From Sulfitobacter sp. HNIBRBA3233 (lineage in GTDB: Bacteria > Pseudomonadota > Alphaproteobacteria > Rhodobacterales > Rhodobacteraceae), in the NCBI RefSeq assembly GCF_040149665.1, contig NZ_JBEFLP010000001.1:1054001-1118000 (forward strand): a DNA stretch of 64,000 nt, read 5' to 3'. A program made the position numbers and the translations under genes. This document shows positions 59,993 through 64,000 of this stretch, one piece after another. The notes below the pieces were generated by a model, which saw only the letters and a list, made by a program, of their open reading frames with translations, was not told where the DNA came from and ran no database searches. The stretch's first letter is position 1, and each line of letters opens with the position of its first letter.

Positions 59993-60898
59993 TCACGCAT
60001 CGAGGCTGTTGCGCGCCTCATCTAGGATGCGCTTTGCCTCGGAGCCATGCAGTTTGGCGATGTCGTCCTGGTATTTCAGGATCGCCCCCAGCGTGTCCGC
60101 GATGGTTTCGGGCGACAGGGTGACCACGTCGAGCGCGAGCAGGCATTTTGCCCAGTCGATGGTTTCGGCGACACCCGGTTTCTTGAACAGATCTTCGGTG
60201 CGCAGGCGCTGGACGAAAGACACGACTTCGCGGCTGAGGGTTTCGGCGGCTTCGGGAGCGCGCGCGGCGAGGATTTCCATCTCGCGGTCGAAATCGGGGT
60301 AGTCGACCCAATGGTAGAGGCACCGCCGCTTGAGCGCGTCGTGCACTTCGCGGGTGCGGTTGGATGTCAGGATCACGATGGGAGGCTCGGGCGCCCTGAC
60401 CGTGCCCATCTCGGGAATGGTGACCTGAAAGTCGCTGAGCGCTTCGAGCAGGAACGCCTCGAACGGGGCATCGGTACGGTCAAGTTCGTCGATCAACAGG
60501 ACGGGGGGGCCGTTTTCATGCCCGCGCATGGCCTGAAGCAGGGGCCGCTCGATCAGGAATTCCTCCGAGAAAAGCTCGGCGTTCAATTCGGCGCGGTCGG
60601 CCTTGCCTGCCGCCTCCGCCGTGCGGATCGCGACCATCTGGGCGGCGAAATTCCATTCGTAGACCGCCGATGCCGCGTCGAGCCCCTCGTAGCACTGGAG
60701 CCGGATCAGGCGGCGGCCGAGCCCCTTGGCCAGCGCCTTGGCGATCTCGGTCTTGCCGACGCCGGCCTCTCCTTCGAGAAAGAGCGGCCGGCCCAGCGTC
60801 AGGCCGAGAAACACCACCGTTCCCAGCGCGCGCCCGCAGACGTAGCCTTGTTCGCCAAGCATCTTCTGGACGGCGTCGATCGAAGAGATATCGGACAT
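59993..60898 (-). CDS. coxD: MoxR-family AAA+ ATPase (CoxD-like)
   Basis: A 301-residue AAA+ ATPase. Walker A GEAGVGKTE (about residues 43-51), Walker B VLLIDELDR, sensor 1 ILTSNRTRE. It is thought to remodel protein clients together with a VWA partner, here CoxE just downstream. The start at 60898 (MSDISSIDAV) is chosen because the upstream in-frame 93 codons are low-complexity and overlap the divergent glycosyltransferase region. Cytoplasmic. Confidence 0.9.
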   Translation of the reverse strand: MSDISSIDAVQKMLGEQGYVCGRALGTVVFLGLTLGRPLFLEGEAGVGKTEIAKALAKGLGRRLIRLQCYEGLDAASAVYEWNFAAQMVAIRTAEAAGKADRAELNAELFSEEFLIERPLLQAMRGHENGPPVLLIDELDRTDAPFEAFLLEALSDFQVTIPEMGTVRAPEPPIVILTSNRTREVHDALKRRCLYHWVDYPDFDREMEILAARAPEAAETLSREVVSFVQRLRTEDLFKKPGVAETIDWAKCLLALDVVTLSPETIADTLGAILKYQDDIAKLHGSEAKRILDEARNSLDA

Positions 60899-61136: not shown

Positions 61137-62186
61137 ATGGGCGCTGATTTGAAGATCACCGCTGTCACCTGCGTCAAGAACGAGGGCCCCTTCCTGCTGG
61201 AATGGATCGCCTACCACCGGGTGCTGGGGGTCACGGACTTTCTCTTCTATTCCAACGACTGCTCGGACGGCACCGATACCTTGCTGGATGCTCTTGCGGC
61301 GCTCGGGGTCGTGACCCATCTTGCCAACCCCGCCAAGGGGCGCAATTACCAGATGGAGGCGCTGAAGGATGCCAAGGAGCAACCCGTGGTCAACGGCGCC
61401 GATTGGGTCTGGATCGCGGATGTGGACGAGTTTCCCAACATCCACACGGGCGATCATACCCTTCCCGCGCTGATCGAGGCCTGCGGCAATCCGATGGCGA
61501 TCAGCCTGAATTTCCAGTTTTTCGCCAATGACGGCATCGACGCCTTCACCGATGCACCCGTGATCGGCCAGTTCGGCCGCAGTCACAACCCCGACCTGTG
61601 GTGCGGCGAGGCTGCGATCGAGGTGAAGACACTGGTGCGCAAGGATTTTCCGCTTCAGTACTACGGCGCGCACCGTCCCTTTCACAAGGGAAAGGGCAAG
61701 AAGGCGAAGGGGCTCGACTGGACCGACGGTTCGGGACGCGCGGTGCCGCACCGTTTTCTGGTTGCGGCCAACCCGCGCCGCATCCGCCGCTTTCCCGCCG
61801 CCGGCGCGCGGGATTTCGCCACGCTGAACCACTATGCGCTGCGCAGCCTCGACAGCTATCTGGTCAAGAACGACCGCGGGGATGTAAACCGCGAAAACCG
61901 TGATTTCGACGATACCTACTGGCGCGAACGCAACGATCCCGCGTGGGAGGATCTGTCGATCCGGCGCTACCTGCCGGCACTGGAGGCGCAGATCGCCGAG
62001 CTGAAAGCGATGGGCGATATCGCGGGCCTGCACGACGCCTGTGTTGCGGCCCATATCGCCAAGCGCGACGCGCTGCTTGCCGAAGAGAGCTACCGCGAGA
62101 TGCGCGCGCAGCTGAAGGCCGCACCGAAACTGCCCCCGCAGGAAGAAGAGATGCTGCGTGATCTGGGTCTGCTGGAGGCGTCCTGA
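61137..62186 (+). CDS. Glycosyltransferase family 2-type protein
   Basis: A 349-residue glycosyltransferase with a GT-A fold. It starts ITAVTCVKNEGPFLLEWIAYHR, carries the nucleotide-sugar/metal DxD-type motif in WIADVDEFPN, and has a HYALRSLDSYLVKNDRGD block. It resembles the family-2/GT92-like proteins common in Roseobacter surface-polysaccharide loci; sugar and acceptor are unknown. The C-terminal ~90 residues are helical. The stop shares TGATG with the next gene, indicating translational coupling. Confidence 0.84.
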   Translation: MGADLKITAVTCVKNEGPFLLEWIAYHRVLGVTDFLFYSNDCSDGTDTLLDALAALGVVTHLANPAKGRNYQMEALKDAKEQPVVNGADWVWIADVDEFPNIHTGDHTLPALIEACGNPMAISLNFQFFANDGIDAFTDAPVIGQFGRSHNPDLWCGEAAIEVKTLVRKDFPLQYYGAHRPFHKGKGKKAKGLDWTDGSGRAVPHRFLVAANPRRIRRFPAAGARDFATLNHYALRSLDSYLVKNDRGDVNRENRDFDDTYWRERNDPAWEDLSIRRYLPALEAQIAELKAMGDIAGLHDACVAAHIAKRDALLAEESYREMRAQLKAAPKLPPQEEEMLRDLGLLEAS

Positions 62187-62806
62187 TGGGGCTCGCGGTC
62201 GTCAACCTCGGCCTGCCGAAGACCGGCACGACCACCCTTGCACGGGCGCTGCGCATCGCGGGTTTCCGCGTGGCCGATCACCGCATCCGCCCCCGCCAGA
62301 CGAAAACCGAGGATCTCAAGAACGCGTTCGTGGCCGATCTGCTCTATCGCGGGTATTTCCAGACCGGCGACCCCGGCGCGCTGTTCGGCAATTTCAACGC
62401 GCTTACCGAACTCAGCTGCCTCAGGCAGGGCAAATCTCTGTGGCCGCAAATGGATTTCGCCCTGATCGACGCGATCCGCACCCACCATCCCGAGGTCCGT
62501 TTTCTGGCGTCACGGCGCAGCAGCTGGGATGTATCGCAATCCATGCTTGCGTGGTCCGATCTTGGCACCGACAGGCTGCCTGCCTCGGACATTCCCGGCC
62601 TGCCCGAAGGCTACGGTGAAACCAGCGCCGAGCGGATCCAGTGGATCGACGGGCACTACGCCCATCTGGCGAAGATTTTCGCGGGCGACCCCGCCTATCT
62701 GGAATACGACGTCGCCCACCCCGACGCGAAGGATGCAGTGGGCCGGCATATCGGCGCTGACCTGACCTGGTGGGGCCAGGCGAATGCCAATCTCAAGGCA
62801 GTATGA
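62186..62806 (+). CDS. Sulfotransferase-family protein
   Basis: A 206-residue protein with the PAPS-binding 5'-phosphosulfate loop LPKTGTTTLARAL (residues 10-22) and the 3'-phosphate region RFLASRRSSWDVSQSML. Sulfotransferases move a sulfate group from PAPS to sugars, lipids or other acceptors. It is short compared with many, but both binding motifs are present. Its start overlaps the glycosyltransferase stop by one base and its stop overlaps the next gene (ATGA), so the three form one operon. Confidence 0.82.
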   Translation: MGLAVVNLGLPKTGTTTLARALRIAGFRVADHRIRPRQTKTEDLKNAFVADLLYRGYFQTGDPGALFGNFNALTELSCLRQGKSLWPQMDFALIDAIRTHHPEVRFLASRRSSWDVSQSMLAWSDLGTDRLPASDIPGLPEGYGETSAERIQWIDGHYAHLAKIFAGDPAYLEYDVAHPDAKDAVGRHIGADLTWWGQANANLKAV

Positions 62807-64000
62807 TGCGCATATACCTCCATATCGGGCCCGAAGAGGCCACCGCACACAGGCTGCAATCGGTCCTTGCCAAGCGGCGCGATGCACTGCTGTCCAGCGG
62901 CGTTCTCTACGCGCGCAGCCCCGGCAACAAGAACCACTCCCGTTTCTACATGGCCGTGACCGATCCTGCGCATGTGGACCCGCTGCGCTACAACCGCGGC
63001 TACATCGCGCCCGAAAAACAGGCGGTACTGCGCGCCGAAGTCTGCGCGGAACTGGCCGCAGAGGTAGACGCGCACCGTCCACACACGCTGATCCTGAGTG
63101 CCGCGCAACTGGGATCGAGCCTGTCGAGCGCGTCCGAGCTTGAACGGCTGCGCGATATGCTGACGCCGCTGTCCGATGACATCCGGATCGTCGCCCATGT
63201 CGATCACCCGTCGCGGATGCTGGTGCGCCGCTACGCCGAGCAAATTCTCGAAGGGCGCGGCGTGACGCTGGATGCCGAACTGGCGCTGGCAGGCAGCGAG
63301 AGCTGGTGGCACGCAGCGCTGGAGGCGCGCCCCATCATCGACCCCAAGGCCGGTGTTTTCGCGGAAACACAGGCACCGAACCACTGGCTCGACCTTGCGG
63401 GACTGGTGCGCTTCTGGGAGGCAGCATTCGGCGAGGGGGCGGTCACCCTGCGCGGCTATGACCCCGCTCTTTTTGCCAGTGCGTCGGTCACCGACGAGAT
63501 TGCCGCCGCTTTCGGTCTGGACACAGCGATTGAACCGGCACGCGACATCGCACATGGCCCAGCCATGCCCGCGGCGGCACTGGCACGGGGCCGACAGCTC
63601 AACGCGTTGCTCCTGCAGGTTCTGTCGAGCCGCAAGCGCAGCCTGCCGCGCCAACTCTGGCGGCAATTCGTACAGGAAGTGGCCGTCGACGGCCCACCGC
63701 TGGAAAGCGGCAGCCTCAATCCCATAGCTCGGCACTTTGCAGCGGACCTTGCGGCGCTGGCGAAGACCCACGCGGGGATTGAACCGGCTACCTTCACGCC
63801 GCCCGCCCCCTTGCCGGACTGGACCGAAGCGGACACCCGGTTCGGTTTCCGGCCCTCGCAATACCTGCTTGGCTTCATGTGGCGGATAGACCGCGCCACG
63901 CGCGAGGATCACGAACGCCGTGTGGCCGAACTCCAGACCCTTGCGGAAACGCCCAGCCCACCGGCCGAAGCGCCCCCGCGCACCGACGAGGACCGCCCCG
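62803..64000 (+). CDS. Sulfotransferase-like protein with degenerate P-loop (partial)
   Basis: An open frame from ATG at 62803 to the right edge with no stop (399 codons visible). The N-terminus MRIYLHIGPEEATAHRLQ matches the start of sulfotransferase-fold proteins, but the usual KTGTT loop is replaced by PEEATA, so PAPS binding is doubtful. Further on, the LLSSGVLYARSPGNKNHSRFYMAV segment resembles the helix-strand that follows the loop in the same family. The C-terminal visible part is Pro/Ala-rich. Overlap with the sulfotransferase stop (ATGATG) indicates one operon. It is incomplete here. Confidence 0.7.
   Translation, partial: MMRIYLHIGPEEATAHRLQSVLAKRRDALLSSGVLYARSPGNKNHSRFYMAVTDPAHVDPLRYNRGYIAPEKQAVLRAEVCAELAAEVDAHRPHTLILSAAQLGSSLSSASELERLRDMLTPLSDDIRIVAHVDHPSRMLVRRYAEQILEGRGVTLDAELALAGSESWWHAALEARPIIDPKAGVFAETQAPNHWLDLAGLVRFWEAAFGEGAVTLRGYDPALFASASVTDEIAAAFGLDTAIEPARDIAHGPAMPAAALARGRQLNALLLQVLSSRKRSLPRQLWRQFVQEVAVDGPPLESGSLNPIARHFAADLAALAKTHAGIEPATFTPPAPLPDWTEADTRFGFRPSQYLLGFMWRIDRATREDHERRVAELQTLAETPSPPAEAPPRTDEDRP

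Follow-up and report, generated by a model that had tools for sequence, protein, structure and literature searches.

A probable pseudo-sulfotransferase domain fused to a glycosyltransferase in a conserved locus of Roseobacter-group bacteria

In the last part of a 64,000-nucleotide stretch of the Sulfitobacter sp. HNIBRBA3233 genome (contig NZ_JBEFLP010000001.1, positions 1054001-1118000; the whole stretch is hereafter called the window), three overlapping genes encode a glycosyltransferase (GTa), a sulfotransferase (ST2) and a third protein, FUS, whose gene is cut by the window end. We observed that FUS is a fusion, in which a degenerate sulfotransferase domain (FUS-N) comes first and a glycosyltransferase domain with an intact DVDEF motif (FUS-C) follows. 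FUS-N retains the sulfotransferase fold, has lost the residues expected to contact the sulfate donor 3'-phosphoadenosine 5'-phosphosulfate (PAPS), and is very likely non-catalytic as a sulfotransferase, judging from its sequence. The explanation that we favour, and hold with about half of our confidence, is that ST2 sulfates and that FUS-N is a non-catalytic module which recognizes the acceptor for the glycosyltransferase domain of its own chain.

The complete gene was read from sequence fetched past the window (L004, position 1 of which is window position 60001). It spans L004:2803-5190, thus ending at the equivalent of window position 65190, and encodes 795 residues; the part visible in the window falls within residues 1 to about 440. 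FUS-C gave 85.6 bits with PF13704 (cut-off 27.5, residues 466-566) and 51.3 bits, also above the cut-off, with PF01697 (GT92), and the DVDEF motif is invariant in 58 of 58 FUS C-domains. The best solved fold match of a full-length FUS model was GalS1, which we take to be a GT92 enzyme, and other glycosyltransferases were matched as well. With PF13704 above its cut-off, a GT-A fold and a DxD motif, FUS-C is a GT2_4/GT92-like domain.

The fold of FUS-N was analysed on a model built from 80 sequences (the window protein and those of 79 of the 80 named loci described below, the broken locus L058 being excluded), which gave a predicted local distance difference test score (pLDDT) of 95.2 and a predicted template modelling score (pTM) of 0.90. 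The sole Foldseek match below E 0.001 was the sulfotransferase 3rnl. In the VIA-align comparison sulfotransferases occupied ranks 1 to 17, with Z from 15.2 down to 9.7; 3rnl had Z 15.2, a root mean square deviation of 4.0 and 237 aligned residues, and NDST1 and heparan sulfate 3-O-sulfotransferase (3-OST) had Z 14.2 and 13.8, respectively. Both the model and its solved matches show the sulfotransferase alpha/beta fold. A reading of the window made from its sequence only had proposed this fold for the third protein and had named modelling as the test that could refute it; with sulfotransferases as the top 17 matches, the proposal held. Adenylate kinases appeared lower down the list, with Z about 8, and we read them as matches to the shared nucleotide-kinase-like core only. 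A sequence search for solved relatives of FUS-N gave none at E up to 1. An assignment to the YopR family of type III secretion needle regulators (PF09025) was rejected, the score being 15.4 bits as compared to a cut-off of 25 and the fold contradicting it.

The FUS-N sequence contains MMRIYLHIGPEEATA, in which PEEATA occupies residues 10-15. A review (PMC11625862) confines the definition of polysaccharide sulfotransferases to a lysine or arginine in the loop, a serine in the 3' site and the beta-sheet architecture. We counted these residues in 104 distinct FUS-N homologues (99 clusters at 90% identity). A lysine or arginine was present in the PAPS loop of 3 of the 104 (E12 in the window protein), and the 3'-site serine also in 3 (R142 in the window protein). 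The 3'-phosphate arginine that precedes this serine was found in none, being replaced by aspartate in 89 homologues, including the window protein (D134), and by glutamate in 11. A glutamate that is conserved among intact relatives persists in 2 of the 104 (A101 in the window protein). No homologue has two of the loop lysine or arginine, the 3' arginine and the serine together. The sequence-only reading was thus right that the nucleotide loop is lost. The column of the loop lysine holds 11 different residues and the second glycine of the loop is kept in only 64 of 104; in Roseobacter, HIGLEQVGADRLQ and HIGLPHCGTERIQ are among the forms that resemble intermediate steps of this decay. FUS-N would therefore be unable to bind PAPS, and a label of "sulfotransferase" on proteins of its type would mislead.

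Within its bacterial family, a FUS-N profile also matched intact proteins of the type HIGTEKTGTTSLQ. When 12 of these relatives were compared with FUS-N, profile to profile, the probability was 99.9 and E 4e-35 over 299 columns; FUS-N thus descends from an active-looking sulfotransferase branch. In 17 intact relatives, picked by hand from the profile matches (open reading frames shorter than 480 aa), the lysine, the arginine and the glutamate are present in 17 of 17 and the serine in 16; four others (L141, L148, L150 and L152), all with the loop lysine, were omitted from this set. The columns of the lost 3'-phosphate site are also paired in the independent profile alignment of FUS-N with its intact relatives. 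The fact that FUS-N has no Pfam family is not surprising, considering that none of the intact relatives scanned (six in one scan) reached a sulfotransferase cut-off either. As side observations, one intact relative (L170:878-2902, minus strand) has two tandem sulfotransferase domains with the loop lysine in both, and another (L167) carries a GT2 domain. The idea that ST2 and FUS-N are duplicates of one another was discarded, since their profile comparison gave a probability of 0.8%.

FUS-N is under continuing purifying selection and is not a dead gene. The ratio of nonsynonymous to synonymous substitution rates (dN/dS, NG86) was 0.07-0.13 in all but one of the 8 pairs compared and 0.37 in the remaining one, which has a dS of only 0.11; for FUS-C it was 0.02-0.09. 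In the 80 aligned FUS-N sequences 29 positions are invariant, many of them arginine and tryptophan; they include R47, R62, R65, R152, W169, W195, D197 and R262. In 79 of the 80 named loci a single gene encodes FUS-N together with the glycosyltransferase domain; the exception is L058, where the gene lies in two frames. Such a split of FUS was observed at L161:8393-10748, L058 and G068:C3:894905-896261, and in these few relatives it is possibly a frameshift, an assembly error or a true gene fission. Between L046 and L048, dS is 0.11 for FUS-N while it is 0.53-0.75 for ST2, GTa and GTd (a second glycosyltransferase gene, see below), which hints that part of the locus has recombined.

The other two genes visible in the window are of known kinds. 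ST2 scored 27.3 bits with Sulfotransfer_4 (PF17784, cut-off 22.8), and its residues P11, K12, G14, T15, T16, R111, S119 and H157 are identical in 29 of 29 aligned orthologues. It has the loop lysine and the 3'-site arginine and serine of PAPS-dependent sulfotransferases and by sequence is a conventional PAPS-type enzyme. GTa gave 73.4 bits with PF13704 (cut-off 27.5) and 35.4 bits with PF01697 (cut-off 23). These results agree with the earlier assignment of the first gene to a sugar transferase and of the second to a PAPS-binding sulfotransferase. PAPS is likely supplied, because an adenosine 5'-phosphosulfate (APS) kinase gene was found in the window genome, within a 576-residue open frame.

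A first survey covered 60 genomes (the window genome, 35 of the same genus and 24 others of the class). FUS was found in 29 of them, i.e. the window genome and 28 of the 35 congeners. GTa, ST2, FUS and a 312-residue gene (PAR) stand in the same order in all 29 loci, and GTd is present in 28. The gene set is therefore not a chance assembly, considering how many congeners have the third protein and that the order never changes. In 26 of the 29 loci FUS and GTd are separated by about 700 bases that contain an extra gene; when two were scanned, one was above the cut-off for FkbM methyltransferases (PF05050) and one just below it. The window genome and L027 lack this gene, and L030 lacks both it and GTd. 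A set of named relatives was made of the best 80 of 207 places, which include Sulfitobacter, Tateyamaria, Tritonibacter, Thalassovita and Salipiger; all 80 of these loci contain GTa, 77 contain ST2 and 44 have the FkbM gene. Across Roseobacter-group bacteria the locus sits between moxR-coxE and pyrC-pyrE-dnaB (the names pyrC, pyrE, dnaB, purL, moxR and coxE were assigned by reading the sequences and not from database labels). The search for plasmid-borne copies gave one weak FUS-N match (27.5% identity, Gemmobacter) and none for ST2.

Of 394 genomes of the family, 100 were counted as having FUS and 95 as having ST2: both occur in 93, FUS only in 7 and ST2 only in 2 (Fisher p about 4e-79, without correction for kinship). 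For FUS, matches at E 1e-50 or better were counted, plus G114 (1.7e-29), and the weaker rows, amounting to 31 more of 131 matched genomes and including inspected intact sulfotransferase relatives, were dropped. For ST2, the counted matches are at 4.4e-50 or better, the weaker ones including partial matches in G392 and G270. One of the two ST2-only genomes, G176, has part of a FUS-N where a contig begins (L190), and G420, not counted for FUS, has a very divergent FUS (L193). In 87 of the 93 genomes FUS and ST2 lie side by side on one strand. In G064, G196, G103 and G100, ST2 is found outside the conserved locus and has none of the other locus genes nearby; in G127 the two genes are on different contigs, possibly by an assembly break, and in G114 they are neighbours with a partial FUS match. 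The 7 genomes without an ST2 match retain FUS including its N-domain. Since ST2 is kept even when unlinked, yet 7 genomes have FUS alone, the role favoured for FUS-N is one connected with sulfation that does not require ST2 as a permanent partner.

On these grounds we propose that the locus serves to build or decorate a glycan. ST2, from its motifs, would be a working sulfotransferase using PAPS, and we infer that it sulfates the glycan of the FUS pathway. FUS would be a GT-A type glycosyltransferase whose N-domain no longer binds PAPS and is retained as a non-catalytic module. FUS-N most likely binds the acceptor glycan, possibly already sulfated by ST2, in the cleft where an active sulfotransferase holds its acceptor, and would present it to FUS-C in its own chain. 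Further sugars would be added by GTa and GTd, and in many relatives the FkbM-type methyltransferase, the gene of which is absent from the locus of the window genome, may add a methyl group. A sulfated surface glycan, as suggested from the window alone, is a plausible product and a fair guess, given the intact ST2, the APS kinase gene and the glycosyltransferases. In L004 none of the genes from moxR to pyrC was recognized as a polymerase, flippase or exporter, the rest of the genome not having been searched.

Two observations weigh against acceptor recognition in cis: the near-perfect co-occurrence of FUS and ST2 fits a partner role equally well, and the faster evolution of FUS-N with respect to the glycosyltransferase domain would also be expected of a mere spacer. 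The partner role is the main rival. In this view FUS-N, as a non-catalytic partner of ST2, would couple sulfation to sugar transfer, either by docking ST2 beside the glycosyltransferase domain or by activating ST2. We consider this unlikely, although it is the alternative that keeps the most weight, because not only the joint occurrence and adjacency of the two genes but also their ATGA overlap in the window agree with it, as does the fact that ST2 left the locus in four genomes yet stays in them. Against it are the 7 genomes with FUS and no ST2 match, and the origin of FUS-N and ST2 from different sulfotransferase branches, so that the two probably did not inherit a common homodimer interface. 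The sequence-only reading had offered a non-catalytic partner as one possibility. Its first half stands as very likely after the loss of the PAPS contacts; as to the second, the likeliest partner of FUS-N lies in cis, because it is fused to a glycosyltransferase, and this fusion had not been foreseen.

We regard it as improbable that FUS-N serves only as a structural spacer ahead of the glycosyltransferase domain, or is a relic in slow decay. Its faster change, the two-frame genes of some relatives (L058, L161) and the use of a different N-module in other lineages (see below) would all suit a spacer. However, dN/dS is well below 1 in 8 of 8 pairs, the 29 invariant positions persist, and FUS-N is found in about 100 of the 394 genomes, nearly all from different genera. 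The other possibility raised earlier, an active transferase with a different donor, is very improbable: the fold class can hold other nucleotides, as the adenylate kinases show, and FUS-N has invariant residues of its own, but no conserved replacement of the loop exists and the 3'-phosphate arginine has become an acid in 100 of 104 homologues.

When FUS-C only was used as query, matches at E 1e-60 or better were found in 290 of the 394 genomes. Eighteen places outside the FUS set comprise 16 proteins of similar size with a different N-module, the very divergent FUS of L193, and L201. At least six of the 16 (L195, L198, L199, L200, L203 and L205) are at the same chromosomal place, with coxE, moxR, pyrC, pyrE or dnaB as neighbours. 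The tree separates the C-domains of FUS (99/75) from the others (99/94). The alternative N-module contains WLxxH, and D-x-x-D where the C-module has DVDEF, the motifs being collinear by eye; it may tentatively be called a degenerate GT-A domain, which profile comparison did not support (5% probability). L201:7014-8918 (plus strand), in a second locus of the congener G013, has a Sulfotransfer_4 domain (38.1 bits, loop lysine present) fused to a FUS-type glycosyltransferase, the C-domain of which groups with FUS (100/98) on a long branch. It is possibly a living example of an active sulfotransferase-glycosyltransferase fusion. A wider and rather doubtful extension of acceptor recognition in cis is that, at one chromosomal place, Rhodobacteraceae join the same glycosyltransferase to interchangeable non-catalytic N-terminal readers, i.e. 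a dead sulfotransferase in lineages with ST2 and another module in others. The dead sulfotransferase would read a sulfated or to-be-sulfated acceptor, and the other module is possibly a degenerate GT-A domain with DxxD. If this were true, dead carbohydrate enzymes would serve as built-in readers of a glycan code.

The features of the window are collected in Table 1. GTa and ST2 overlap by one base (TGATG), and ST2 and FUS by ATGA at 62803-62806, which confirms the overlaps reported earlier for the three genes. The operon continues beyond the window, as had been predicted: GTd (L004:5190-6245) overlaps FUS by one base and is followed in L004 by PAR, pyrC, pyrE and dnaB, so that the moxR-to-pyrC interval contains GTa, ST2, FUS, GTd and the 312-residue protein. 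PAR (L004:6343-7281, plus strand, equivalent to window positions 66343-67281) is kept between GTd and pyrC in 29 of 29 congener loci. The domain scan gave no family above cut-off for it; it contains GAGPCGYAAAAYS, which presumably resembles a nucleophile elbow.

Table 1. Genes and sites at the 3' end of the window.
Feature	Position	Strand	Description or basis
GTa	61137..62186	+	Glycosyltransferase, 349 aa; PF13704 Glyco_tranf_2_4 / PF01697 GT92-like
ST2	62186..62806	+	Predicted PAPS-type sulfotransferase, 206 aa; PF17784 Sulfotransfer_4
ST2 5'-phosphosulfate loop, intact, LPKTGTT, residues 10-16	62213..62233	+	Sequence, orthologue alignment
ST2 3'-phosphate site, R111 to S119	62516..62542	+	29/29 orthologues
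FUS N-terminal degenerate sulfotransferase-fold domain, residues 1-399 of 795	62803..64000	+	Model, fold matches
FUS P-loop relic PEEATA, residues 10-15, E12 at the Lys position	62830..62847	+	
FUS lost 3'-phosphate site, D134 for Arg, R142 for Ser	63202..63228	+	

With every PAPS contact lost and the fold still conserved across about 100 genera, FUS-N would be a clear example of a pseudo-sulfotransferase. Roseobacter-group bacteria are abundant partners of algae in the sea, and the locus suggests, in a form that can be tested, how they might make sulfated glycans. The component parts of the locus are of known kinds; in the literature searched, most subscription journals being outside its scope, neither a pseudo-sulfotransferase fused to a glycosyltransferase nor a paper on this locus was found, and terms of the pseudo-sulfotransferase type were not found for a bacterial protein, the matches being papers on frog epimerases.

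FUS-N shares its fold, over about 230 residues, with NDST1 and the heparan sulfate 3-O-sulfotransferases, with respect to which it lacks the PAPS-loop lysine, the 3'-phosphate arginine and the serine; moreover, NDST is fused to a deacetylase and FUS-N to a glycosyltransferase. Its direct relatives are the uncharacterised Rhodobacteraceae sulfotransferase-like proteins with HIG(T/L)xKTGTTSLQ (the profile match given above), some of which have extra domains; unlike FUS-N, they have the lysine, arginine, serine and glutamate intact. GalS1 resembles FUS in its fold and in the GT92 family whose cut-off FUS passes. It differs in being a plant enzyme with about 13% identity, the listing of which names no sulfotransferase-fold module. 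Dermatan sulfate epimerase 2 (DSEL) is, as described in PMC4920151, a glycan-processing enzyme with an appended sulfotransferase-like domain, an arrangement that recalls FUS; it differs in being a eukaryotic epimerase with this domain at the C-terminus. The fusion of L201 has the same glycosyltransferase domain family behind an N-terminal sulfotransferase domain, as FUS has, and differs from it in that this N-domain is of the Sulfotransfer_4 type and keeps the loop lysine.

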